Below, in pieces: positions 1 through 18,342 of a stretch of DNA of 22,913 bases. Source of the DNA: a virus. The notes under the pieces are model-generated. The model was not told the origin of the DNA, did not search any database, and was given only the letters and a program-made list of their open reading frames with translations. The stretch covers positions 1 through 22,913 of IMG/VR virus record IMGVR_UViG_3300009550_000068; one strand, written 5' to 3'. Positions within the stretch are counted from its first letter, which is position 1. Each line of letters starts with the position of its first letter. The position numbers and the translations under genes are program-made.

Positions 1-1969
1 CACTATAAAGGTATGAGTTAGATTTGTTCGTAACACCTTCGAATACTTGTACATCTGTTATACCACCTTCAAAGGATGCGATAGTACCACCTGAGTCTGC
101 AGGGAAGTTATGGTTTTCATTTGTTAAGAAAGAAGTAACCGCATCGACACCATCAGTACCATCAGTACCATTACTACCATCTGCACCACCTTCTACTTTA
201 AATACTTTTATACTATCATCTAATGAATCTTTATTTACTTCAATTGTAATTGGTAGGTCAGACTTTGAAACAACCTTTCCTGCGGCAGGACTAGCACCAT
301 TATCAAATGTAATACTACCACTTAATAAACCAGAACCATCAGATACAACGCCATCAATAGAAGGAGTGGTAATTGCCCCACCACCTGCTTTAGTAATTGT
401 TATATCACTTGTTGCAACAGTTCCACTAAGATTTTGTTGGTTAATAATAAATGATATAGAACTTGGTGTTGATGTATTGTCTGAGGAATCATCAAATGCA
501 AATACTTGAGAATCTACTGTAACTTGTAATGCTTTTGCGTCTGACCCTGCGAGACCTGCAGTACCTTGTTTTGATTTAACTAAGGACATTGTTTTTGCAA
601 GTTGTGTACTTGCACTAACTGCGGTGATTATTACTGAACCACTATCGTGTCCTAATGCTGATATTGCTAGTACATTTCCATTTGTACCACTTAAAGTTGA
701 TGTTACTCCTGCACTACCTGTTCTACTATAATTATAGTTTGCGGTTTTATCTGTAACACCTTCAAATACAATCATGGAAGAACTTGCGTCAGTAAAACTA
801 ACAATTGTTCCATCTGATTGTGCAGCGAAGGTATGTGCTTCATTAGTTAAGAATGTAGTTACTGCGTCTACACCATCTGTACCATTAGAACCATCTGCTC
901 CACCCTCGACCTTAAATATTTTAATTGTATCTGTTAATCCATTTTTAGTTGCAGATATAGTTAAAGGGAAATGAGATTTTGTCCCTTCCATACCACCTGA
1001 ACTTAAGTTGTTTCCAAATACAATACTACCTGATGATATACCACTATGTTTACCACCACTATTTGTTACACTATTATTATCAAAAGCAAAACCTGTTACT
1101 GATGAACCACCTGAAGTTGTGATTGTAATATCACTTGAACCAAGAGTGGCATTTAAGTTTTGTTGATTAAATGAAAATATAATGTTTGTAGGTGTTGCTG
1201 ATGAATCACTTGAGTCATCAAATGCAAATACTTGTGATGATACACTTGCAACTAATGATTTTGCATTAGAACCATCTAATCCGGCAGAACCTTGTGCACC
1301 ATTAGCACCATCTGTACCTGCGTTTGATTTAGCAAGTGACATGGTTTTAACTAATTGTGTACTTGCGCTAACTGCAGTTATAGTAAGTGAACCACTATCA
1401 TGACCCATCGCAGTAATAGTAAATGTATCCGTGCTTTGATTAAAACTAACACCTAATGAACCCGTACCACTAAATGAATAGTTTGATGTTCTATTTGTTA
1501 TACCTTCGAATACAACTATATCTGTAGCGCCTGTACTAAAGTCTGATACCGTACCTGATGAATTAGCAGGGAATGTATGAGATTCATTAGTTAGGAATGC
1601 CGTTACTGCGTCTGTACCATCTGTTCCGTCTGAACCACCTTCTACTTTTCCTATTGTTGTTGTATCGGTTACACTATCTTTACTTACTACAAGACTTAAT
1701 GGTAAATCAGATTTACCTAAACTTAAACCACTAAACGATAAACTACCACTTTGTTGTCCTGAGCCAGATACATCAACAACACCACCTAATGAAGGTGTTG
1801 ATATACTTGCTCCACCCGCCTTTGTGATTGTAATATCACTTGTTGCGATTGTACCTGATAGATTTTGTTGACTAACTACAAAGTTAATTACATTTGGTGT
1901 AGCGGTTGTATCACTTGAATCGTCAAATGCGTATACTTGAGAGTCAACAGTAATTTGTAATGATTTTGC
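1..1969 (-). repeat. Three tandem protein-level repeats of about 240 residues
   Basis: Repeat units start at 1969, 1264 and 538 (residues 1019, 1254 and 1496), giving unit lengths of 705 bp (235 aa), 726 bp (242 aa) and a third cut by the window edge. Each begins with AK(S/A)L followed by QV(F/Y)AFDDSSD, passes through SDITIT and KVEGG(A/S)DG, then VTxFLTNExH and VFEG(V/I)T. The two complete copies continue with GHDSGS and VSASTQL. All offsets are multiples of three, which independently supports the long open frame. The copies have diverged at DNA level, so this is domain duplication rather than a recent DNA repeat. Confidence 0.9.
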
Positions 1970-4900
1970 AGTATTTGATGCCGTTGCTTCGTTAATCGCC
2001 TGTTGTACATCATCACCACTTGGGAATTGCAAAGTACCTCTAATAGTTAATGCACTCGTAGTCGGATTCCAAACAAGTCTATCACCTAATGAAAAGTTTG
2101 AACCTGAATCTACATAAAATCCTGTACTTGAGTGATTATAAGTTCCTGCGCCTGTAAACAACTTACCACCAGTCATATTGATTCCACCAATAGAACCTGT
2201 GTTTGCTATTATACCACCTTGAAGGAATACATTATCTGTTGCTAAACCAAAACCTGGCGTTGCACTACCAAATACTTTTGTACTTCCTGCCAATCCACTC
2301 AAGTCACCAAGTCTAGCTCTTAATGCAACATCATATAACCCACTACCAGTTCTTTCAACTATATCCATAAATGGAGTATCAGTATCTCGTGGATTTGCAT
2401 TCATTTTTATGTAACCACTACCATTCAGTCCTGTCGATACTAAAACTTGTCCTTCATCATATGATTGTGATGTTGACGCAAGGTCACCTACAAAGTCACC
2501 TTGTGACCCACTTCCAAATCCTCTTGTTACATAAAGTCTACCATGTACTTCATCCGCATTAGTATTATCACCATCGAGTGACGCTGAATTTACTAAAATA
2601 TATTCTGTCTGAAATCCTGTTCCATCTACTTTCTTGGCTAATAATATTTCACCTGTCGTAAATCCACTTGCGTTCTTAACAGACATAGTAGTATCATTTG
2701 CGGTGATATTTGAACCTGTTAGTGTTGTTGCGTTAGTAACCCATAATTGACCACCAACTGCGTTTACTGATTCTTTTTCAAATGTCGTTGTTCTTAGTGT
2801 ACCTCTAATTCTTACATTTTCAAACTCTGCAGTACCATTACCTTCAGATGATATTTTCCAACCTCTTAGTCCACTTGCAAAGTCTCTTGTTTGTAAAATA
2901 CCTGCAGGTCTCATTAATAAGTTTCCACCCTCAATAGTGTTAGGTGTTATTTCCCAACCACCAATTGATGCGGATTTGAATGAAGCGAATCCATCTGCGT
3001 CAATAGATGATGACGCATTTTGTTTTGTAGAGGCACTTCCACCAATGTTTGCAGGAGTACGAATGTTATTTGCGGTTACTGCACCTAATATAGTTACACC
3101 ATCTGTAATTGTACCACCTGATAGTAATACTCTTGATGCGGTTATATCACCTGCAGCTTTTAATCTTAGTGCATTATCAGATGACCTTATTTCATCTGAA
3201 ACTATATCAAACCCTGCAATAGATGCGGATGCGAATCTTGCAAAACCATCAGAGTCTATTGAAGATGATGCGTTTGTTTTTGTTGCAGGTGAACCATTTA
3301 TGATTGCAGGAGTTCTAATTTGATTTACTGTAAGAGATGATTTAATGGTTGCATTTGTACCAATCACCAATTGATTTGAAATAGGGTCTAAGTGAAAGTC
3401 AGATGAACTAATTTCAATCTTACCACCAGAACCACTCATGAATTGACTGCCTGGCGTTCCTATAAAAAACTTATTTGCTTTTATATCTAATTCACCACTA
3501 CCTGATGTTGTAAATTTAAGATGGCTTTCATCATTCTCACCAACAAATTCAAAACCAACACCTTCCATTTGGTCAACACCAACTAAAAGATTTCCACTAC
3601 CAGAATATATTATAAATCCACCTGGCCCTTTTCCTTCGGATGCGGATGTAAATCCTTCATATCCAACTGACCTTAAGAATCCACTACTTGCACCACCTAT
3701 TTCAATACCACTACCCAATGCGTTTGATATGAAAATAGAGCCCGTTATTAAAGAACCTTTACCACCTATAAAAGTAGGTGAACCTGGAAAAACAATATCC
3801 TCTATTAATACAAATGTTTGGGATGGTTCGTTTTTACTATTTAAAAATTCTATCTTAATTGTTTTTGGGTCACCAATATGTTTAGATGGTATTGGTACTG
3901 TATATGTAAATGCTACAACTGAATCATTAAAAAGATTTGTTGATATAGTTTCAAACTCTGTACCCAATCCTTTTGATTTTACAGATGTTCTTAATTGGTG
4001 TACTTCACCTGATATTGGTTGAGTATTTGTAATAGTAAATGTTGCTGCGGTTTGTAAGTTTGCAGTTGTCCCTTGTGATGCCGATGAAAAGAATTCTACT
4101 TCAGTTGGGATTGTATCACTATCTGTAAATCTATAAACATGATTTGAACTTCCTGTTATCTCATCTTTGATTTGTAATATATTACTACTTGATACGCTTA
4201 ATATTGAAGATGTAAATTCTGTTGGTTGGGTTACATTTGTTTGTCTTGGAAAAACAGTTTGACTTGATAGGTCGAATCTTATTTCACCACCAATCATTTC
4301 AGAGGTAAATGCATTACCACTTGTTTTAGTAATTATCACATCATCACCGAAACTTGATTTTTGATACTTAGTGTTGAATGATGAAGTTACTTTTGTTAGT
4401 GTTGACTTTCTTCCTTGTCCTAAATCGTCACCTTCACTATCTAATTGAAATGACGCAAATGGTCTTAAACTTGATGATACTTGTGCAGTTGGTAAAGTTT
4501 TTTCATCAAATATAATTTCTGATGATGTTTTTTCATTTACTCTTACAGGTATTCTTCGTGTCCATATTACATCTTGATTTGTAGTACTCTTACCTTTTAC
4601 AATTATTTTAGCTTCACCTGGCGCAGTATTTTCACTTTGGATTGCTCTACCCGAATATACCCAAATAGCTACTAACCTACCACCATCTTTACTTAAAAAG
4701 TTTGGTATTTCATGATATATGGGGTTTCCTAACGCATCTTCAATTTCAATCTCAATTTCAGAATTCCTTCTAAGTAAAGAAGAACCCAATACTCGGATTG
4801 TATTTTTACCTGTTCCTAAATAAGAAGGAATGTCCGTAATATTAAAATATGTTGAGTTAGGGTCAGTATCTTCTATAACAAATGTCGCAGATGGAAGTGG

Positions 4901-5023
4901 GGGTCGTCCAGTCGGTGCTGTGCCCAAAGTATCATCAGTCCCACCCCTATCTGTTGTTTTTGGTGTGGGTGCGAACTTCCTATTTAGATTTTTCTTACCT
5001 CTTCGTCTGAATGGTATTGCCAT
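1..5023 (-). CDS. Giant tail-fibre / tail-tip protein with tandem repeats (3' end outside window)
   Basis: The reading frame opens at ATG 5023-5021 and I read no stop down to the left edge, giving at least 1674 codons; the C-terminus is missing. A GGAG Shine-Dalgarno at 5031-5034 lies 7 bases before the ATG, and the preceding gene stops 19 bases upstream. The protein is rich in Ser, Thr, Gly and Asn with almost no Cys, typical of phage fibres. Residues 569-573 and 654-658 (IRTPA) mark two related 85-residue units. Around residues 940-1015 there is a tail-tip-like stretch containing GSIGGINMTGGK and SLGDRLVW, of a kind I associate with phage tail-tip/host-specificity proteins. From residue 1019 onward there are three copies of a unit of 235-242 residues, the last one cut by the window edge. 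Short collagen-like Gly-X-X runs such as GADGSNGTDG lie inside the repeats. Likely role: the distal tail structure that contacts the host. The fibre assignment is good; the exact position in the tail is inferred. Confidence 0.85.
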   Translation of the reverse strand, partial: MAIPFRRRGKKNLNRKFAPTPKTTDRGGTDDTLGTAPTGRPPLPSATFVIEDTDPNSTYFNITDIPSYLGTGKNTIRVLGSSLLRRNSEIEIEIEDALGNPIYHEIPNFLSKDGGRLVAIWVYSGRAIQSENTAPGEAKIIVKGKSTTNQDVIWTRRIPVRVNEKTSSEIIFDEKTLPTAQVSSSLRPFASFQLDSEGDDLGQGRKSTLTKVTSSFNTKYQKSSFGDDVIITKTSGNAFTSEMIGGEIRFDLSSQTVFPRQTNVTQPTEFTSSILSVSSSNILQIKDEITGSSNHVYRFTDSDTIPTEVEFFSSASQGTTANLQTAATFTITNTQPISGEVHQLRTSVKSKGLGTEFETISTNLFNDSVVAFTYTVPIPSKHIGDPKTIKIEFLNSKNEPSQTFVLIEDIVFPGSPTFIGGKGSLITGSIFISNALGSGIEIGGASSGFLRSVGYEGFTSASEGKGPGGFIIYSGSGNLLVGVDQMEGVGFEFVGENDESHLKFTTSGSGELDIKANKFFIGTPGSQFMSGSGGKIEISSSDFHLDPISNQLVIGTNATIKSSLTVNQIRTPAIINGSPATKTNASSSIDSDGFARFASASIAGFDIVSDEIRSSDNALRLKAAGDITASRVLLSGGTITDGVTILGAVTANNIRTPANIGGSASTKQNASSSIDADGFASFKSASIGGWEITPNTIEGGNLLMRPAGILQTRDFASGLRGWKISSEGNGTAEFENVRIRGTLRTTTFEKESVNAVGGQLWVTNATTLTGSNITANDTTMSVKNASGFTTGEILLAKKVDGTGFQTEYILVNSASLDGDNTNADEVHGRLYVTRGFGSGSQGDFVGDLASTSQSYDEGQVLVSTGLNGSGYIKMNANPRDTDTPFMDIVERTGSGLYDVALRARLGDLSGLAGSTKVFGSATPGFGLATDNVFLQGGIIANTGSIGGINMTGGKLFTGAGTYNHSSTGFYVDSGSNFSLGDRLVWNPTTSALTIRGTLQFPSGDDVQQAINEATASNTAKSLQITVDSQVYAFDDSSDTTATPNVINFVVSQQNLSGTIATSDITITKAGGASISTPSLGGVVDVSGSGQQSGSLSFSGLSLGKSDLPLSLVVSKDSVTDTTTIGKVEGGSDGTDGTDAVTAFLTNESHTFPANSSGTVSDFSTGATDIVVFEGITNRTSNYSFSGTGSLGVSFNQSTDTFTITAMGHDSGSLTITAVSASTQLVKTMSLAKSNAGTDGANGAQGSAGLDGSNAKSLVASVSSQVFAFDDSSDSSATPTNIIFSFNQQNLNATLGSSDITITTSGGSSVTGFAFDNNSVTNSGGKHSGISSGSIVFGNNLSSGGMEGTKSHFPLTISATKNGLTDTIKIFKVEGGADGSNGTDGVDAVTTFLTNEAHTFAAQSDGTIVSFTDASSSMIVFEGVTDKTANYNYSRTGSAGVTSTLSGTNGNVLAISALGHDSGSVIITAVSASTQLAKTMSLVKSKQGTAGLAGSDAKALQVTVDSQVFAFDDSSDNTSTPSSISFIINQQNLSGTVATSDITITKAGGGAITTPSIDGVVSDGSGLLSGSITFDNGASPAAGKVVSKSDLPITIEVNKDSLDDSIKVFKVEGGADGSNGTDGTDGVDAVTSFLTNENHNFPADSGGTIASFEGGITDVQVFEGVTNKSNSYLYS
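2950..3328 (-). repeat. Pair of 85-residue repeat units in the giant fibre gene
   Basis: Two copies of a unit starting (N/I)xIRTPA, followed by ASSSID(S/A)DGFA and SASI(A/G)G, lie 255 bp apart (about 3328-3215 and about 3073-2950). The pattern resembles the repeated beta units of phage fibre shafts. The spacing is measured directly from the sequence; the structural reading is inferred. Confidence 0.7.
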
Positions 5024-5042: not shown

Positions 5043-8000
5043 CTATAAATATGAAACTTTTGAGAACCCACGAACTTTACTGATATCTATTATTTGGTCT
5101 ACCATGTCTCTTGTTTTATCAATGTGAGATATTGTAACAATAAAATCAAATTGTGTTTTAAGGTAATCAAATAATAAATATAGAGAATTAAAGTTATCAG
5201 TATCAAGTGAACCAAATCCCTCATCAATAGCTATAAAGTTTGGTCTTGGTAAATTTGATACATTTATTAGTGCGGTTCTTATTGCGATTGATGATATAAA
5301 CTTTTCCATACCACTTGTTAATTCAAGAGGCCAGTATTCATCAGTTCCATATGCAATATAAGAATTAATATTTTTCCCATCAGTATTTAATAATACTTGG
5401 AAATCTACTATTGGTGATAATATGTTATTTATTTCAATTTCTAATTTTGGTAATACTTCGGATATTAATTGATATGGTATTCCATCTCTTCTAACACATT
5501 TTAAGTAGTATTCATACCCATCGTATTTAATTTCCATATCGCGAAGTTTTTCGATTGATTCGTTAACTTGTTGTATAGATTTTTCTGCTAATTTAATATC
5601 AGAGTTAATCGACATCACCTCTTCGTTAACCTCAGATATTTTGTCTTTTAAAGTTTCTCGTGTGTCTTTAAAAGAATTTATTCTTTCATTGACCAGCTTG
5701 TTGTGCTCAACTGCTTGTTGTTGCTCATCTGCTTTTTTGATTAGTTCACTTAACGAGTTAATCTCTGATTTATATCCATCTACTAACTTGATACATTCAT
5801 CATAAATCTTAGTCGCATCTAACCATTCTTTATCTAATAGACGAGAATCATCTGTTAAGGTTTCATAATCTTGTAATTCATTCTTAACATCATATTGTGA
5901 CCTTTCGTCTAATATCTTAATCTTTTCTTTAATTAGTTTTTCAAACTTAGTATTTTGACTTTTGATATCTTTTTGTAATTGTTCTGTTTGCTTTACAATT
6001 GGTGTATTTTTATTCTGTACACAATGGTCACAATTATCATCAAAGGTTAATTGACCGATTCCATCTAATGTAGACCTCATATGCTTTAGGTCTAATTCAA
6101 TAGTCTGAGATTCTTGTTCTAATTTATTATACTTTGTATCTAATCTATTGTACTTAGTATTTTTCTTTTTAAGTTCTTTGATGTTTAACTTAGATAGTTT
6201 AGATTCGATATCTTTTTGTTTCACTTCAATATCATTGATTTGTAATTTATTAAAATCACATTCTGAGTTTTGATTATCAAAAAGAACTTTAACTTCATTT
6301 AACTTAGATTGTAAAGTTTCTTTATCACCGATATCTTCTACTGGTTTTAAAGTTCTTACTTCATACTCCATTTTCATAATAGTATTATCTAACTTTAAAT
6401 CAAGTTCATCTTTTCTTTCTTGTAATTCATCTAAAGAACCTGTGATTGATGTTAACGATTGTTCTGCTTCAATCAGTTGACTTGGGAAGTCTTCTTTTTT
6501 ATATTCTCTAAGTAATGTGTTTAGCTCTCTAATCTCTTCACTTGCTATCGCCCATAAATCTTCAAATATATCCATATCTAAAAATTGTGCTAATAGTTCT
6601 TTTCTTTCCTTTTGAGATTTTTCTATAAACCCACTACTATTAGATTGTGTTGACATCGCAGTTAAAACAAAGTCTTCATATGTTCCAATATATTCACGAA
6701 TACTTGCATTGGTTTCTCTTCTTTGTTCACCATTTAATGATTCTTTTTGACCATCAACCATACGATAGAAATCAACATCAACTTTTACAGTTCCTCTCTT
6801 TGGACTTTTCTTTGCTTTTCTTTCTATAAAGTAAGGAGTGTTGTTTAGTTCAAATTCAAACTTACAATCAAAGTTCATTTTAGAGTAGTTCATTACATCT
6901 TCTGCTCTGATTGTTCTTGAACATTTATCAAACATACAAAATGATAGTGCGTCCCATAGAGTTGATTTACCACTTGCATTTGGTGCGAAGATTCCATATG
7001 CACCTTTCATATTTGTAAAGTCAATTACATTGTTTGTTCCATATGAAAACATATTAGAAAACTCAAATCGTTTTGGAATCCATGTAGAGTTAGACAAAAT
7101 GGTATGTTTTCCGAGTTTATCATTAATGTCGTTGTTTATATTTGTAACAACCTCAAGTTGGTCTTTTGTAAGATGTTCAGTTTCTTCTAAATAATCTTGT
7201 ATTAGTTTATTTTGAAATCCTGTATCTCTTACATTTTGTAATATAATAGATTGGTGTTCTATATCTCTTTTACGAGTAAGTACTTTTTGAACAGTAAGTT
7301 CTTGAACATCTTTTCCTTTTTTTATCTTTGCAATTAATTTATTTAATTGTGATGTTTTTGTATCCTTTACTCTTATTCTAATTCTTGGCTTATTTGGTAT
7401 TGGATTGTCAGATATTATTTTACCATTTTCAATATCAATAGTAACATATCCATAATCATTATGAACAGGAACAAACTTACTTTTAAGTGTGTTCATGTCC
7501 CAAACTAAAATACCATGAATAGGATATTTAGCTTCACCATGATTTTGAACTATAAGAGAACCTGAATATTTTATGTGAGGTTGTTTCATCACCTCATTAT
7601 TAGGTTTATGAATATCACCTAACAATGCTAAATCATATCCATCAAAGTGAGATACTTTAACATTTTTATTTTGGATAATAAATCCATGCTCTGTTTCTAT
7701 ATTATCTACTGGTCCATGAAATACTGCAATCCTACCATTGTTTTCTTTAAATCCTTTTGCGGATGGAAATCCTTCTGATTTGTCCCAAATAGATTTATGT
7801 ACAAATGTATAACCACCGATTCCATATCCACCCGTATCTTTCAGATAGTATATATTCTCATGGTCCAATGCTGATATGATTGGACTCAATGCGTCAAGTC
7901 TTGATGTATTGTTTAGATTTGCGTCATGATTACCAGGTATTACAATAGTTGGTAATAGGTCTGCTAACTTACAGAAAAACTCTTGTGTTAGGTCAACCAC

Positions 8001-8213
8001 CTCAGGTGACATATCTGTCTTTGCGTGTACAATATCACCTGCAATATAAATAATATCGTTTTTACCCATAGTAGATAATATGTGCCCATACAATTGTGAG
8101 AACACTTGACGATACTCTTTATGTCTTTTTAGATTTCTAATATGGACATCGGCGATATGATATATCTTGTCTATTTTTTCGATACCGATATCGATGTACT
8201 TTATTTTTCTCAT
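5043..8213 (-). CDS. Fused Mre11/SbcD nuclease and Rad50/SbcC ATPase (T4 gp47-gp46 fusion)
   Basis: This 1056-aa polypeptide carries both halves of the phage recombination exonuclease complex, which resects DNA ends for recombination-dependent replication. The N-terminal calcineurin-like phosphoesterase shows the metal motifs in order: DVH at 22-24, GD at 59-60, GNHD at 94-97, H166, and GDIHKP at 199-204 (the usual last motif is GHxH). The ABC-type ATPase starts near residue 378: Walker A GIFAPNASGKST 407-418, a long Lys/Glu-rich coiled coil, the zinc-hook CDHC at 728-731, signature LTSGMEKF 965-972, Walker B IAIDEGFGSLD with DE at 997-998, and the switch His at about 1030. In T4 these are two genes (gp47, 339 aa, and gp46, 560 aa) in the same order, and no stop or restart separates them here. 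The start overlaps the primase stop as ATGA (8213-8210), suggesting coupled translation. All catalytic elements look intact. Confidence 0.95.
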   Translation of the reverse strand: MRKIKYIDIGIEKIDKIYHIADVHIRNLKRHKEYRQVFSQLYGHILSTMGKNDIIYIAGDIVHAKTDMSPEVVDLTQEFFCKLADLLPTIVIPGNHDANLNNTSRLDALSPIISALDHENIYYLKDTGGYGIGGYTFVHKSIWDKSEGFPSAKGFKENNGRIAVFHGPVDNIETEHGFIIQNKNVKVSHFDGYDLALLGDIHKPNNEVMKQPHIKYSGSLIVQNHGEAKYPIHGILVWDMNTLKSKFVPVHNDYGYVTIDIENGKIISDNPIPNKPRIRIRVKDTKTSQLNKLIAKIKKGKDVQELTVQKVLTRKRDIEHQSIILQNVRDTGFQNKLIQDYLEETEHLTKDQLEVVTNINNDINDKLGKHTILSNSTWIPKRFEFSNMFSYGTNNVIDFTNMKGAYGIFAPNASGKSTLWDALSFCMFDKCSRTIRAEDVMNYSKMNFDCKFEFELNNTPYFIERKAKKSPKRGTVKVDVDFYRMVDGQKESLNGEQRRETNASIREYIGTYEDFVLTAMSTQSNSSGFIEKSQKERKELLAQFLDMDIFEDLWAIASEEIRELNTLLREYKKEDFPSQLIEAEQSLTSITGSLDELQERKDELDLKLDNTIMKMEYEVRTLKPVEDIGDKETLQSKLNEVKVLFDNQNSECDFNKLQINDIEVKQKDIESKLSKLNIKELKKKNTKYNRLDTKYNKLEQESQTIELDLKHMRSTLDGIGQLTFDDNCDHCVQNKNTPIVKQTEQLQKDIKSQNTKFEKLIKEKIKILDERSQYDVKNELQDYETLTDDSRLLDKEWLDATKIYDECIKLVDGYKSEINSLSELIKKADEQQQAVEHNKLVNERINSFKDTRETLKDKISEVNEEVMSINSDIKLAEKSIQQVNESIEKLRDMEIKYDGYEYYLKCVRRDGIPYQLISEVLPKLEIEINNILSPIVDFQVLLNTDGKNINSYIAYGTDEYWPLELTSGMEKFISSIAIRTALINVSNLPRPNFIAIDEGFGSLDTDNFNSLYLLFDYLKTQFDFIVTISHIDKTRDMVDQIIDISKVRGFSKVSYL

Positions 8214-9145
8214 ACATTAAATAACTGATACTCCATTAGCTTTCTCAAGTCTAATGTTGGGGTATCATAGATTTTTTGGTTTATAGTTTCATATCCCATT
8301 TCAGATGGGTCTTCATCACCCAAATCAACCAAATGCGTATCTATCCCATATGACATAAACTTCTTAGAAAGTCCTATGGCATTAGATATCGCATCAGAAT
8401 CTAAACAAATATACAACTTTTTTACTTTATTTGCAACTATTTTCTTTTCTAATTCTGATTGTATTGATTTTCCGAATAATGGTATTGCATTCCTACGAAT
8501 AGCTATTGCGTCAAATGCTCCTTCACATAAAACCAACGGAATATCCCAATTCACTAAAAGGTCGAACCCTACAATGTTTTTTGATACCTTTGGATTTTTA
8601 TGTTTAAATTTACTTTGGTAAAACGACCTACCTACAAAAAAGTTTAATCGTCCTCTTTCATCGTATGATGGTATAATTATCTTATCTTCATATTCTCCTG
8701 TTTCACAATATCCTATATTATATTTAACAATATCCTCGGGCCTTACACCTCTTTTTAACAAATAATTTAATGCGTGTTTATACTTAAATGATTTTGACTT
8801 TTTGTAAAGTGGTTTAAACTCCTTTGGAAGTTCTACTATTTCACTTTTATTATTATCTTGAAAATCTAAATTGTATCTGTTTATTCTACTGAATATACTA
8901 TTGTACTCATCCCATGTTTGTTTAGATACACGAAGTTTCTTAAAAAGAGTTTTAATAGTTCTACCCTTTTCATCCGATATCCAACAATGCCATGGATTCC
9001 TTCCATCAGAAGTAATTCTAATGTTTACTTCTAACTTAGGTTTATAGTGGTCTACAAAAGGTGAGTAAAACGCATAGTTGTCACCAGATGTTCTCTTGGA
9101 TTTACCAAGAATAGACTCTAATAATTCAAGTAGTCTTTCTTCCAT
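8210..9145 (-). CDS. DNA primase, DnaG/TOPRIM type, without zinc-binding cysteines
   Basis: This 311-aa protein should make RNA primers for lagging-strand synthesis. The TOPRIM core is clear: VLCEGAFDAIAI gives the catalytic Glu, LYICLDSD the DxD, and GDEDPSEMG follows. Upstream, a segment around residues 130-195 with RGVRPEDIVKYNIG and IIIPSYDERGRLNFFVGR matches the region before TOPRIM in DnaG-like primases. The N-terminus (about residues 20-75, including YSPF and PWHCWISDEKG) has the layout of a CHC2-type zinc ribbon but only one Cys remains. The protein is short compared with bacterial DnaG (about 580 aa) and close to T4 gp61 (342 aa). Its TGA stop overlaps the next start by four bases. 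A weak Shine-Dalgarno precedes it in a 39-bp gap. No helicase gene is present in the window. Confidence 0.9.
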   Translation of the reverse strand: MEERLLELLESILGKSKRTSGDNYAFYSPFVDHYKPKLEVNIRITSDGRNPWHCWISDEKGRTIKTLFKKLRVSKQTWDEYNSIFSRINRYNLDFQDNNKSEIVELPKEFKPLYKKSKSFKYKHALNYLLKRGVRPEDIVKYNIGYCETGEYEDKIIIPSYDERGRLNFFVGRSFYQSKFKHKNPKVSKNIVGFDLLVNWDIPLVLCEGAFDAIAIRRNAIPLFGKSIQSELEKKIVANKVKKLYICLDSDAISNAIGLSKKFMSYGIDTHLVDLGDEDPSEMGYETINQKIYDTPTLDLRKLMEYQLFNV

Positions 9146-9184: not shown

Positions 9185-9610
9185 TTAACCAAAGAATTTC
9201 GTAATTGGTTTTTCATCTATCCAATCTTGAGGTATTTCTTTTTTAGCCCATTTTAATCCGTTCTTTTCACACCATTGTGCATAAGTAGTCTTAGAGCCTT
9301 TGTATATTTTACCATTTGGGGATTGTAATACAAACCTTAAATCCATAGTAGGGTTCTGTTCTTTAATTAATAAGTGTTTCTTCCTATCTTCAGGTAAGAA
9401 CCATCCTTTTGATTCTATAAAAATACCATTTGGTAATTTAAAATCAGGTTTGTAAGTATGATGAGTTGCTGGTATTGTGTATGATACCTCGTGTTTTTCA
9501 TACTCACCATCAATACCTTGAGCTTTTAATTGTTCGTCAATTCGTGTCTCAAGGCCGGACTTGTGTCCTTTTTGTTTTTGGATGTGACTCCAATTGCCTT
9601 TTTTATTCAT
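9185..9610 (-). CDS. Endonuclease I, Holliday-junction resolvase (T7 gp3 family)
   Basis: This 141-aa protein is close in length and layout to T7 endonuclease I, a homodimeric enzyme that cuts four-way junctions and branched replication intermediates before packaging. The catalytic PD-(D/E)xK set is in place: E21 in SGLE, D56 in KPDF, E66 and K68 in IESKG. From memory the T7 residues are E20, D55, E65 and K67, a constant offset of one. Other shared blocks are IPATHHTYKPDF, LPNGIFIESKG, DRKKHLLI, YKGS and IPQDWI. It starts two bases after the stop of the lectin-like structural gene, with little Shine-Dalgarno, so translation is probably coupled. It heads a cassette with primase and the Mre11-Rad50 fusion. 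Confidence 0.94.
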   Translation of the reverse strand: MNKKGNWSHIQKQKGHKSGLETRIDEQLKAQGIDGEYEKHEVSYTIPATHHTYKPDFKLPNGIFIESKGWFLPEDRKKHLLIKEQNPTMDLRFVLQSPNGKIYKGSKTTYAQWCEKNGLKWAKKEIPQDWIDEKPITKFFG

Positions 9611-13370: not shown

Positions 13371-16300
13371 TTATCCACCACCCTGATTATTTAGGTAATT
13401 TGATATTGGATTATTTGTGTTTGTTGCACCACTTGTATTTCCATTAAAAAACCCACCTGGTACAGGATTAGTGTTAACATTTCTTCTACCATTAGACCTA
13501 TTGATTGCGGCGTTTGCTGCGTTTACATCAAGACCAAAAGGAACTCCATTTGCTCTTCGTGTAATAATCTGACCTTGTGGTTTTGGAGTTGCAACAGGCC
13601 TAGATGGGAATGGTGTTGGTCTACCAATAGGTACTGGTCTAAATATGTTATATGCGTCTGATACTAACTGCCCTTTGCCTGGGTCTAATTCGTTATCAAG
13701 AATATTTTGTACTGAAACTAAATCAGCTGGCTCTACTACTTTAACATCTTTTGTTGTTGATGATACAATGTCTAAAGAACTACCTTGACCAGGAGTATTG
13801 AAAACTAATATATTTGGGTCTACTGTTGTTATTTGTACTACTGGTGTATTATCAGGAGTATCAGGTGAATTTGTTGTTAAAGAATCACTTGATATTCTAC
13901 ATCCTAAATAAAATAAATTATTTAGATTACCTGTTAATCTATCATCTTGAACTCTTGCAAAATGGAATGAAGCTGAGTTTGCATATGTTGGTCCTTTTGA
14001 AGCTGAAAAGTCTGTACTATAAAAATACTTTGGCTCAAGTGCGCTTCGTGAAAGTCTTGCGTCTAATACAGTAGAACCTGTTGGTGAATATTCCCAATAA
14101 GGATTTGATTGAGTTACATACACATAGTTAGAACCACTACCAACCATTATATCAGTATACTTGTATATAGATGGTGCAAACGAATCTTTTGTTATACTAC
14201 TTGTATATGTTAGGTATTCTGCTGATGAAGATTCCATAACTTTTACAGGAGAGGTTTCAAACATATGTTGACTATAACTTATAGTATCTGGTCTTTTAAA
14301 ATTATTTCTTTCAAGTACATGGGGTTCAATTAAAATACCCTTATGCCAATCTGCCCTTGCAGGTACTATTTGTTTCATAGTATCAAAGATTGACATATCA
14401 TATCGTGATAACATTCCTATTATAATATTAAGAGCAGTTCCTCTATTATATTTTTGGAAGTAGTTTCTTGCTCTAAAGTCTAATAAGTCATATCCATCGT
14501 TATTTCTAACATCAGTATCACCAATTAAGTCATCTACATCAAAGTATCCCTCTGATGCGTAGATATCAAAGTTTACTGTGTCTGTTGTTGAAAAATAAGT
14601 TCCAAGTAAATTTGAGTCTTGTGGTGCTTGGTCATACTGACTTAATTCGTTACTTTTATCTGTTTGAAGATTTCCTCTTAATGAAGAAGATTCTATTCTT
14701 ACTTTTTGATTATTTAAGTTAAGTGCGCCTACTGATGGGATAGTTACAAACTGTGTATCTACTTCACCAGACAATCTACTTGCGTTTGAATTTTGATAAG
14801 ACGCTGATAAAAAGAATCCTCTATCAGATGCCGTTACTTTTTGATTTGGGTGTCTTGATGTTATAAAACTACTTGTAGTATTATATTGACTATCTGGGAA
14901 TATTCTGTAAAGAACATTTTCAAAAGATGTGTCTATATCTAAGTCAGTCGTGTTATCATCAGAATAGTATGCCTCTCTATTTTGTGCGTGTCCTAATATT
15001 ACTTCACTACTTAATTCTTTTTTATAGTATCTTAGTTCTTGTATACTTGCAGTAGTTGTTGTGCCTGTAAATGGTGCTTCAACATTATTTAAAAATGTAG
15101 AACCACTTGAATGCCAAATGTAATTCCAATTACCACTATCAGTTGATGCGGTTGGTTGTGCAAGTGCGTCACCAAAGTCATCTACCCATGCTGCGTCTAA
15201 ACGATACCCATTTGACCCTGATGATAATCCTACTACAACATCTCTTTGTTGAACATATGGAAAATAGGATGAACTTATAGTTAATGTTGGACTACCACCT
15301 TGTACTAAGAATCTAGCGTCTTTTGTTACTGGTCTGTACTCCCACTTTACTCCAAGAGTTCCACCATCTTTTTGGTTTATTCTAAATAGGTTATGACTTC
15401 CTCGTGGTAGTTTAGCGATATATTCTATTGTTTTAGGTCGATTACCACCAATTGTATCCCATGGTTGTTTACTACTTGTATTACCATCTAATTGTAATTT
15501 GTAAACATATCTTTCGTGTTCAAATAAGTTTTTATCTTCTTTTACTCTTGGACCACCATATTCTCTAATTTTAAGAAAAGCACTTGGAATACCATAAGAT
15601 GCGATTAGTGTTTTAAACGACCTAGCACTACCTTTTGTTTTATATATTCCTGGTAAGTTATTTAATAATCTTCGCCAAGTTTCTTGTACTATTTCTTTAG
15701 TTGGCTTTGAATATAGTGAACCTGATTGTTGTGGGTCACCACTTTGATTTATACCAAACTCATATTGCCATAAACCTGTATCTGAATATCCATTAAATAG
15801 TTTCCACCCAAATGAGTTTGCTACTATTTCAATTAACTCACTTGCCAATCCATCTTGAGGATGTTCTTCTCTTTGATTTATTGATGTAAGTGAGTTTATA
15901 TATTTCCAAGATATATCAAAATGCTGACCTATCATGTTTATGAAAAGTTCATAGTCTCTGTTTAACTCATCATCATTAATGTTTACAGGAATAATCTTAC
16001 TAAGTTTGTTAGCATTTTGTGCGTCATATGCAGAGGCACTTAAAAGTGTTGAGGTTCGCCAGTTTCTTCCTTCACTTGATGTACTATGATATAATACATC
16101 AGGGTTTCTACTTGATTTTGGATATGCGTTTATTGTAAAGTCAGAAGAACTAAAGTGTGTATATAGTTCTGAGTCGTGATTATAATATAACCAATACTCA
16201 AAGTCATCAAAAGTTCCTATTAGTTCATTTCTTCTTCTTCTTGATGATGAAATGTTTGTTAATGCGTTTGAACCACTTACTCCACCTAATACACCGATTC

Positions 16301-17771
16301 TTCTATCAAATGCCTCTATTTGCTGTAATTTATAATAAAAGTTTTCAACTCGTTCTTCTGCTGAAGAAAAGTTTACAAAGTTTTTAAAATTAGAGTGGTC
16401 TGTATTTAGTTTTATGTTTCCAAGTGAACCACTAAAGAACTTGTCAATAATTTTTTGTTGTGTTGTAGTACCAGCGTCTAATAAACTATTCCATGTTTCA
16501 AACTCACCACTACTACCTTTACCATCACCTAAATCTATGTTAAAGTTAGGGTCTGAGAAGTATTCTGTTTGGTCTATTCCTAAATTTCTAAATAGAATAA
16601 TTTTTTCGACATAAGACCTCATTAGTTGGGTTGACAATCCCATGTTTTCGTTTACTGCAATAGTTTCTGGTAATGGATTATAAAGTTTTAGTATCGCCTC
16701 ATCAACAGATACTATATCTGTATTTAATTTTCTATATTTTACACTCCAATTATATGGTTGCCCTATTGGAGTTACTACACCACCACCTATTTGATTACTT
16801 GGTGAATTTTCTGATTGTGCAAAATTACTACCACCACTTGGTTGTTGCCAATATCCATTTCTTTCAACCGCTCTAGCTATTCTTTCTGGAACATCAAGTG
16901 GAAGTGAACCTGAACTTATAACATCACCTAATGAAAACTTTCGTTCCCAAGCAAGTTCTGTGTTTGGTTGTTGTACTATTTTAAACTCTTCAAATTTACC
17001 AGTTAATTCAAAGTTAGGTGTGGTTAAGTTTGGTCGTTTAACATACCTATCTATTTTAACTTCTGCAAAAGTTTGATATGGAGTTTCACCATCTTCGTCT
17101 AATGCTGCTTCAAGAGCTCTATCGTCTACTGGAAAAAATATAGTTCCTTCTGTATCACCTATTGGGTATTGTAGATATGCGTCTACCTCACCAACAATCT
17201 GTCCATCAAATTGAGCGTTAACAATTGGTATTAGTTGGTTGTTTCCTAAGTTTACCATAGCAGGCGTATATGTACTTGGGTTATCACCAAATGAATTTTC
17301 TCTTATCTGGTTATTAGATAGTTGTCTTAGTGGTGCCAGTCCATTAGCAGCCAAACTTGTTATTTTAATTTCAGTTCTATCTCCTGATATTTCTTTGATT
17401 TTTGCGTCTGAAAGATTGTGAAGAAAATTGTAAACTACTGTATATGTTCCTTGGTTAAATCCGGCACTTCTAACATCCGCTTCTGGCTTTACATATAAAG
17501 TGTAACCACCACCCTCATTTCCGATTCCTTCTAATGGTTGGTTATATTGAGATTGTACTAAACTTGCGCCTGCATAGTAGTGTTTTTCTACGGATGGACT
17601 ACTAACTGTACCGTTACTAGCAAAAGGAATCCCTAAGATATCGGCATTTTTTAAAGGCACTCGGACTTGGTTAGCCTCTAAACTAGCTCTATCTTGGTTA
17701 TCAAAAACTTGACCAATTGCTGGTTGTTTTGATAGTACCTCTTCTTCATTGTAAAATCTATCTAATGCCAT
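13371..17771 (-). CDS. 1466-aa tail/baseplate structural protein with gpI-like segment
   Basis: This very large virion protein begins MALDRFYNEEEVLSKQP. Around residues 697-742 it has LPGIYKTKGSARSFK and ASYGIPSAFLKIREYGG, a pattern I associate with P2 gpI-type baseplate proteins and related large marine-phage tail proteins (a chain that must pass a short-fold region before the fibre). Residues about 813-930 look like a LamG-like beta sandwich, with ASIQELRYYKKELS near its end. Around residues 1127-1157 lies MKQIVPARADWHKGILIEPHVLERNNFK-type sequence (quoted in part: KGILIEPHVLER), also typical of baseplate-linked proteins. The last 90 residues are Pro, Asn and Gly rich and end NNQGGG. The start overlaps the nucleotidyltransferase gene by 14 bases. 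Likely role: a large baseplate or tail-fibre connector; domain-level function is inferred. Confidence 0.78.
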   Translation of the reverse strand: MALDRFYNEEEVLSKQPAIGQVFDNQDRASLEANQVRVPLKNADILGIPFASNGTVSSPSVEKHYYAGASLVQSQYNQPLEGIGNEGGGYTLYVKPEADVRSAGFNQGTYTVVYNFLHNLSDAKIKEISGDRTEIKITSLAANGLAPLRQLSNNQIRENSFGDNPSTYTPAMVNLGNNQLIPIVNAQFDGQIVGEVDAYLQYPIGDTEGTIFFPVDDRALEAALDEDGETPYQTFAEVKIDRYVKRPNLTTPNFELTGKFEEFKIVQQPNTELAWERKFSLGDVISSGSLPLDVPERIARAVERNGYWQQPSGGSNFAQSENSPSNQIGGGVVTPIGQPYNWSVKYRKLNTDIVSVDEAILKLYNPLPETIAVNENMGLSTQLMRSYVEKIILFRNLGIDQTEYFSDPNFNIDLGDGKGSSGEFETWNSLLDAGTTTQQKIIDKFFSGSLGNIKLNTDHSNFKNFVNFSSAEERVENFYYKLQQIEAFDRRIGVLGGVSGSNALTNISSSRRRRNELIGTFDDFEYWLYYNHDSELYTHFSSSDFTINAYPKSSRNPDVLYHSTSSEGRNWRTSTLLSASAYDAQNANKLSKIIPVNINDDELNRDYELFINMIGQHFDISWKYINSLTSINQREEHPQDGLASELIEIVANSFGWKLFNGYSDTGLWQYEFGINQSGDPQQSGSLYSKPTKEIVQETWRRLLNNLPGIYKTKGSARSFKTLIASYGIPSAFLKIREYGGPRVKEDKNLFEHERYVYKLQLDGNTSSKQPWDTIGGNRPKTIEYIAKLPRGSHNLFRINQKDGGTLGVKWEYRPVTKDARFLVQGGSPTLTISSSYFPYVQQRDVVVGLSSGSNGYRLDAAWVDDFGDALAQPTASTDSGNWNYIWHSSGSTFLNNVEAPFTGTTTTASIQELRYYKKELSSEVILGHAQNREAYYSDDNTTDLDIDTSFENVLYRIFPDSQYNTTSSFITSRHPNQKVTASDRGFFLSASYQNSNASRLSGEVDTQFVTIPSVGALNLNNQKVRIESSSLRGNLQTDKSNELSQYDQAPQDSNLLGTYFSTTDTVNFDIYASEGYFDVDDLIGDTDVRNNDGYDLLDFRARNYFQKYNRGTALNIIIGMLSRYDMSIFDTMKQIVPARADWHKGILIEPHVLERNNFKRPDTISYSQHMFETSPVKVMESSSAEYLTYTSSITKDSFAPSIYKYTDIMVGSGSNYVYVTQSNPYWEYSPTGSTVLDARLSRSALEPKYFYSTDFSASKGPTYANSASFHFARVQDDRLTGNLNNLFYLGCRISSDSLTTNSPDTPDNTPVVQITTVDPNILVFNTPGQGSSLDIVSSTTKDVKVVEPADLVSVQNILDNELDPGKGQLVSDAYNIFRPVPIGRPTPFPSRPVATPKPQGQIITRRANGVPFGLDVNAANAAINRSNGRRNVNTNPVPGGFFNGNTSGATNTNNPISNYLNNQGGG

Positions 17772-18342
17772 TCTTTAAATCCAAAAATTTACCATTATAG
17801 GTTTTTTCTCTAATTCTTTTGTTTACTTTTGATATTGTAAAATAATCGTATCCTTCAATTTCATATAATCCACTAACTAATTCTTTTACTGCTAAACTTT
17901 TAGGTAGTGAAACTTCTTGTAATGTTAGTCCGTTGTAAGTTTTTATACTTTTTTTATGATTTTTAATTCTTTTAAATTTTGTATTTACCTTAGATGGTCT
18001 TTCACATTTTTTTCTAATACCCAAATGTTCTTGCCACAATGCCTCATTACTCCATTTAATATCAATAAACATATTTCTTTCAAAACCCATAATCATTGCG
18101 GTGTCTAAAATCTCTTTTAGTTTATCGTAATCTTTTATTTCATTTCTTAGTACAATGTCAACATCCATTGTTGGTATTTTTGCACCATAAATGTTTTCTG
18201 CAAATGCACCAACTAAATAAACTTTATAGTCTGATAAATCAACTTCTTTGTTAAAGTTATTCCACCATCCTTTAAATTTATCGTACCTCGGTTGTTCCCA
18301 AGGTTTTGTAGTTTCAATATTTCCAATTCTAAAATAAAACAT
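17758..18342 (-). CDS. Nucleotidyltransferase-fold protein within the baseplate genes
   Basis: This 194-aa protein shows the pattern of the polymerase-beta-like nucleotidyltransferase fold: YLVGAFAENIYG (residues 42-53), then MDVDIVL with the paired acids D60 and D62, then a third acid D94 in MFIDIKW. The classical GS pair is GA here (G45, A46). A basic C-terminal half (CERPSK, KRIKNHKKSIK) may bind nucleic acid or protein. The metal-binding acids suggest an active enzyme that transfers a nucleotide to an unknown substrate. Overlaps are tight: one base with the 318-aa gene (TAATG) and 14 bases with the 1466-aa gene, so it is translated with the tail proteins. There is no HEPN or antitoxin-like partner, which argues against a toxin-antitoxin pair. 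The fold is well supported; the substrate is unknown. Confidence 0.78.
   Translation of the reverse strand: MFYFRIGNIETTKPWEQPRYDKFKGWWNNFNKEVDLSDYKVYLVGAFAENIYGAKIPTMDVDIVLRNEIKDYDKLKEILDTAMIMGFERNMFIDIKWSNEALWQEHLGIRKKCERPSKVNTKFKRIKNHKKSIKTYNGLTLQEVSLPKSLAVKELVSGLYEIEGYDYFTISKVNKRIREKTYNGKFLDLKNGIR

Follow-up and report, generated by a model that had tools for sequence, protein, structure and literature searches.

A single open reading frame on the minus strand of the window (the whole 22,913-base virus record analysed here, with a G+C content of 33%) encodes both halves of the Mre11-Rad50 complex in one chain of 1056 amino acids. The frame begins with an ATG codon and contains no internal stop. 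This gene is very probably the main, and probably the only, end-processing nuclease of the Mre11-Rad50 type (SbcD-SbcC, gp47-gp46) of the phage, probably acting as a homodimer that feeds a recombinase of the RecA/UvsX type. The preliminary description of this DNA had reported both halves in one continuous frame at positions 5043 to 8213, and had left open whether such fusions were already described in phages. The frame was recovered as reported, and the Pfam and PHROG domains together with 101 other loci organized in one frame establish a genuine single-chain fusion. Mre11/Rad50 fusions were described in 2011 in Mimivirus (protein R555), in bacterial plasmids, in eukaryotes and in the Bacillus phage 0305phi8-36 (Yoshida, Claverie and Ogata; PMC3175470). 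The fusion of the window is not new in kind and is an abundant member of this family. The positions of all features are given in Table 1.

Table 1. Features of the fusion gene and of its upstream neighbours (positions in the window; n = 67 refers to the alignment of homologues).
Feature	Residues	Positions	Strand	Basis
Mre11-Rad50 fusion gene	1-1056	5043..8213	-	Single ORF; Pfam and PHROG matches; 101 other one-frame loci
DNA primase gene		8210..9145	-	phrog_47, E 1.5e-31
T7 gp3-type endonuclease I (Holliday-junction resolvase) gene		9185..9610	-	PF05367, E 2.1e-53
Mre11/SbcD-type calcineurin-like phosphoesterase domain	16-204	7602..8168	-	PF00149 Metallophos, E 1.5e-11; AlphaFold model
Nuclease motif I, DVH	D22, H24	8142..8150	-	D22 and H24 invariant, n = 67
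Nuclease motif II, GDIVH	59-63 (D60, H63)	8025..8039	-	G59, D60 and H63 invariant, n = 67
Nuclease motif III, GNHD	94-97	7923..7934	-	Invariant, n = 67
Nuclease motif IV, His	H166	7716..7718	-	Invariant, n = 67
Nuclease motif V, GDIH (within GDIHKP, 199-204)	199-202	7608..7619	-	Invariant, n = 67
Putative capping-domain region	205-330	7224..7601	-	Lies between phosphoesterase and HLH; strands and helices mixed in model
Helix-loop-helix (HLH), putative Rad50-binding region	331-367	7113..7223	-	Model helices 331-345 and 350-367
Junction linker	368-376	7086..7112	-	No secondary structure in model
Rad50-type ATPase, N-terminal lobe	377-547	6573..7085	-	SMC_N match; PDB Rad50/SbcC heads
Walker A, FAPNASGKS	409-417	6963..6989	-	Motif comparison; GKS invariant, n = 67
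Ascending coiled coil	548-720	6054..6572	-	Helices in model
Zinc hook, CDHC	728-731	6021..6032	-	C728 and C731 invariant, n = 67
Descending coiled coil	738-907	5493..6002	-	Helices in model
Rad50-type ATPase, C-terminal lobe	908-1056	5046..5492	-	Model; PDB heads
ABC signature, TSGME	966-970	5304..5318	-	S967-G968-M969-E970 invariant, n = 67
Walker B, FIAIDE	993-998	5220..5237	-	D997 and E998 invariant, n = 67
H-loop	H1030	5124..5126	-	Invariant, n = 67

A dereplicated set of 67 full-length homologues, with identities down to about 39%, was aligned to analyse the conservation of the fusion. All the nuclease and ATPase motifs listed in the preliminary description are present, and their catalytic positions are invariant. 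Thus D22, H24, D60, N95, H96, H166, D200 and H202, the GKS of Walker A and the pair of hook cysteines are found in the 67 sequences, as are S967-G968-M969-E970, D997, E998 and H1030. Two nuclease motifs depart from the usual consensus: motif II is GDxxH instead of GDxxD, its final Asp being replaced by a His, and motif V is GDxH, where an Asp replaces the first His of GHxH in all 67 sequences. The GDIH that had been noted in place of GHxH is the rule in this fusion family. It has been reported for R555 too, which carries a His in motif II and an Asp (Asp242) in motif V (PMC3175470).

These replacements raise the possibility that the nuclease half is altered or inactive and that the protein is mainly a DNA-tethering ATPase; the Asp found at the first His of motif V in every sequence fits such a reading. 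We nevertheless consider it unlikely, as the expected ligand positions hold invariant residues of ligand type, whereas drift would be expected at a site that had lost its activity. An Asp is itself able to ligate a metal. The Asp of motif V is moreover shared with R555, by its published description, and with the split protein D12 of T5 type, where the motif is GDLH.

The second half of the chain is of Rad50/SbcC type. The Pfam profile SMC_N is recognized at residues 382-440 (E 5.9e-6, a value under its curated cut-off) and the PHROG profile phrog_77 (SbcC-like) spans residues 288-1055 (E 4.6e-50). The PDB matches of the fusion, by sequence and by fold, are Rad50/SbcC heads. Two consensus departures are also found in this half: Walker A has an Ala for its first Gly, and TSGME takes the place of LSGGE as the ABC signature. 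Concerning the profiles themselves, T4 gp46 begins at position 293 of phrog_77 (967 positions) and T4 gp47 covers only positions 29-377 of phrog_100 (989 positions), and this coverage suggests that both profiles include fused members.

The junction between the two halves is of constant length: the gap from L367 to W378 is exactly 10 residues in the 67 sequences. An AlphaFold model was built from the 67-row alignment (mean pLDDT 81), in which the relative placement of the domains is unreliable because the pTM is 0.48. The model contains the two helices of the HLH, a short unstructured stretch, the first ATPase strand at residue 377 and then the coiled coils flanking the hook. This predicted order matches that of a Mre11 HLH placed directly before Rad50. 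From their position and from the model, residues 205-330 would correspond to the capping domain, and by analogy with the solved Mre11-Rad50 complexes the HLH would contact the base of the coiled coil. When viral models were searched by fold, the closest were full-length DNA repair exonuclease proteins of giant viruses and phages, including those of the Tenacibaculum phages pT24 and PTm1.

The full fusion is encoded in one frame at 101 other loci, originating from many separate metagenomes and from the isolated Microcystis phage Mel-JY01. These loci were obtained by two scans of viral contigs (one with the protein and one with the alignment), from the Mel-JY01 record and from one genome contig; some of them are the same contig fetched twice. 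The full-length homologues comprise 1035 to 1073 amino acids, and further matching loci are cut off by contig ends. The preliminary description had called for a search for other full-length fusions, and these loci, with the isolated phages Mel-JY01 and pT24, answer this point. It had also considered that a stop codon or a frameshift near position 7100 could separate two genes. Among the 101 full-length loci, none is split at the junction into one gene for the Mre11 half and another for the Rad50 half. When the window is compared with its nearest relatives, the changes fall mostly at third codon positions throughout the junction; in the comparison with one relative (L018), the changes at codon positions 1, 2 and 3 number 102, 53 and 299 overall, and 6, 3 and 24 in residues 330-378. 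Judging from this bias in the aligned sequences, translation continues across the junction in this frame. It is true that this exact sequence is represented by one assembled contig only, and an error of assembly or sequencing that deleted a stop or a frameshift would create an apparent fusion of two genes. This explanation can be given practically no weight, as the same uninterrupted frame occurs in the 101 further loci, the junction does not vary in length among the 67 aligned sequences, and the third-position bias extends across it. An assembly artefact is ruled out by the independent loci.

A second alternative, also raised in the preliminary description, is that the whole fusion is translated together with a free gp46-like ATPase initiated at an internal start, leading to a mixed complex. 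An in-frame ATG (M388) is indeed present in the 67 sequences. However, M388 lies within the invariant segment NMFSY, and a product initiated there would lack the first strand of the ATPase; only two of the 67 sequences have a Shine-Dalgarno match of at least 4 bases in front of it. The other in-frame starts are scattered and M388 alone is conserved near the junction; in the 67 sequences, no internal start was found to be conserved together with a ribosome-binding site. The missing Shine-Dalgarno motif is weak counter-evidence, because the annotated starts are themselves preceded by weak motifs (3 bases in 39 of 67) and initiation signals are generally weak in these phages. Considering the position of M388 and the few Shine-Dalgarno matches, a separate gp46 product is unlikely, and a mixed complex is very improbable. 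We thus retain the single chain as the product of the gene, and a widespread lineage of T4-like phages carries the fusion as a stable trait.

A few loci present particular features. The contig fetched as L012 and L068 has one in-frame stop at fusion residue 842 (L012:8524-8526), far from the junction, which is either a sequencing error or a real truncation. In a metagenomic phage of 484 kb (LR756508.1), an insert of about 1 kb (L049:6620-7660) is located in the nuclease half, right after the GDIHK motif. This insert contains an ORF of 305 amino acids with a weak match to TnsA-like endonucleases (PF08722, E 5.8e-6). It resembles an intron or an insertion of homing type at a conserved site; an Rfam search for an intron gave no match. 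The scan of bacterial and archaeal genomes recovered two relatives only, both on small MAG contigs. One contig (CALBOT010000005.1), binned as Candidatus Nitrosopelagicus, carries the whole fusion with the primase and the endonuclease I, and is probably a misbinned phage contig. Another (JARGOJ010000027.1), binned as Planctomycetota, contains a partial fusion match.

The genomic neighbourhood is also conserved. The primase gene is located upstream of the fusion and its end overlaps the fusion start by 4 bases. A DNA primase lies directly upstream of the fusion in 92 of the 101 loci, and a T7-type endonuclease I is found within 2.5 kb upstream in 91. These are exactly the two types of genes carried by marine scaffolds with R555-like genes, many of which were proposed to come from phages because of the phage primase and the T7-gp3-type endonuclease (PMC3175470). 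Elsewhere in the window, the minus strand contains at positions 2-5023 a tail-fibre-like ORF of at least 1674 amino acids, which runs off the window end and displays repeated GxDGxxG collagen-like segments. An ORF of 1466 amino acids (13371-17771, minus strand) is situated amid tail and baseplate genes; it has no Pfam match and has relatives in the neighbouring loci. Finally, an ORF of 194 amino acids (17758-18342, minus strand) has no match in Pfam or PHROG and contains a DVDIVL segment that recalls nucleotidyltransferases, a candidate likeness.

As the window itself is a 22.9 kb fragment, the number of copies was assessed in nine related records of greater length (71-190 kb). The fusion is the sole Rad50-like match in eight of them. 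The ninth, Mel-JY01, contains extra Rad50-like matches that are weak and fragmentary (best E 7e-6), and beyond these fragments no separate gp46 or gp47 was detected elsewhere in the nine records. The fusion is the sole metallophosphoesterase of Mre11 size in all nine. Two additional PF00149 genes in two related records (G003 and G004) were rejected as Mre11 candidates, since with 252-261 amino acids they are too short for the capping and HLH regions. A match to the T4-type Gp23 capsid protein was found in nine of ten related records and a RecA-family recombinase in all ten. The search for T4 endonuclease VII gave no match, but it detected nothing in the control genomes either and is thus no evidence of absence. 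Based on homology and gene context, the fusion may have a role in recombination like that of T4 gp46/gp47.

Among known systems, the fusion closely matches the published description of the R555 type. By that description, the two have in common both domains in one chain with Mre11 first, the motifs GDxxH (motif II) and GDxH (motif V), the capping and HLH regions, the Walker A and Walker B motifs, a coiled coil and a hook, the signature of the window being TSGME. The spacer is of 9-10 residues in the window, to be compared with the linker of 9-12 residues that suits the known complex, as estimated from the Thermotoga complex (PMC3175470). R555 differs by its size (1351 amino acids against 1056), its longer coiled coil and its origin, an amoeba virus rather than a T4-like phage lineage. 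In Mel-JY01, the protein WWT39521.1 ("AAA domain containing protein") is a full-length fusion with 41% identity and a DNA primase upstream; an ORF of 174 bases separates the two genes and the upstream nuclease is annotated as GIY-YIG, not endonuclease I. Literature searches on Mel-JY01, and on Far-T4 with gp46, found nothing. The Tenacibaculum phage pT24 has a single-chain fusion with GNHD, GDIH, CxxC and TSGME as in the window, but it is longer (1310 amino acids) and its gene neighbourhood is different. Fusions are also present in metagenomic phages of 484 kb (interrupted by the insertion) and 735 kb. Proteins of the Tenacibaculum phages PTm1 and PTm5, of the Chryseobacterium phages MA9V-1/2 and of the Sphingomonas phage PAU match that of pT24 or of the 735 kb phage over most of their length. 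The proteins of pT24, PTm, MA9V and PAU are annotated as DNA repair or metallo-phosphoesterase, and the distant members share only 23-30% identity.

The two domain families occur in the same order in T4, where, as the preliminary description stated, gp47 and gp46 are separate genes (339 and 560 amino acids). Where the fusion has GDIH and TSGME, the T4 proteins have GHFH and SEGE. The gene neighbourhood of T4 differs from that of the window, while the Gp23 capsid protein and a RecA-family recombinase are common to T4 and to the fusion-bearing relatives. E. coli SbcD/SbcC and cellular Mre11/Rad50 resemble the fusion by their fold and motif order; they are encoded by two genes and have much longer coiled coils, a signature of LSGGE type and a GHxH motif. 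In the phylogenetic tree, within the limits imposed by long branches, a branch with 100/99 support divides the sampled fusions from the two-gene proteins of T4, cyanophage, T5 and SPO1 type, and the fusions do not group with the T4-type proteins. This topology is compatible with a single fusion event among phages and is no proof of it. That one event gave rise to the fusions of T4-like phages, to those of jumbo phages and to the R555-type fusions of giant eukaryotic viruses, with movement between bacterial and eukaryotic viruses, is a scenario that we put forward tentatively, with more doubt than confidence.

We infer the architecture of the dimer, the metal chemistry of the motif V Asp, the DNA substrates and the biological role as follows. 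Two chains would associate into a homodimer that corresponds to the M2R2 complex, in which the Mre11 parts would pair and the two ATPase heads would sandwich ATP. Each HLH would be placed at a coiled-coil base, probably that of its own chain, as the fixed ten-residue spacer would permit. The zinc hook would close or bridge the coiled coils, and the binding and hydrolysis of ATP would control whether DNA ends can reach the nuclease. Double-strand ends would be resected into 3' single strands for the phage recombinase of RecA/UvsX type, and this resection would support recombination-dependent replication and repair. The chemistry could differ from that of known complexes because motif II, motif V, Walker A and the signature depart from the consensus. 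The preliminary description had also argued that the fused chain constrains stoichiometry. The ratio is indeed fixed, but no new stoichiometry is created because the two-gene M2R2 complex is already 1:1. It is not established that the dimer relies for its assembly on contacts of the hook and ATPase, as the preliminary description proposed, because the Mre11 phosphoesterase is itself a dimerisation unit in solved complexes. The observation of the preliminary description is confirmed and its interpretation is partly supported.

The genome context of this phage backs the proposal of 2011 that R555-like fusion genes, which are abundant in the sea, are largely phage-borne, and the window adds clean genomic context and evidence of conservation in a lineage of T4-like phages. 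With its short coiled coils and its length of about 1056 residues, such a Mre11-Rad50 encoded by one gene would be handy for structural and single-molecule work on end resection. If the single origin is true, these viruses would share a single-chain resection machine of fixed geometry, with the distinct active-site signature GDxxH/GDIH and TSGME.
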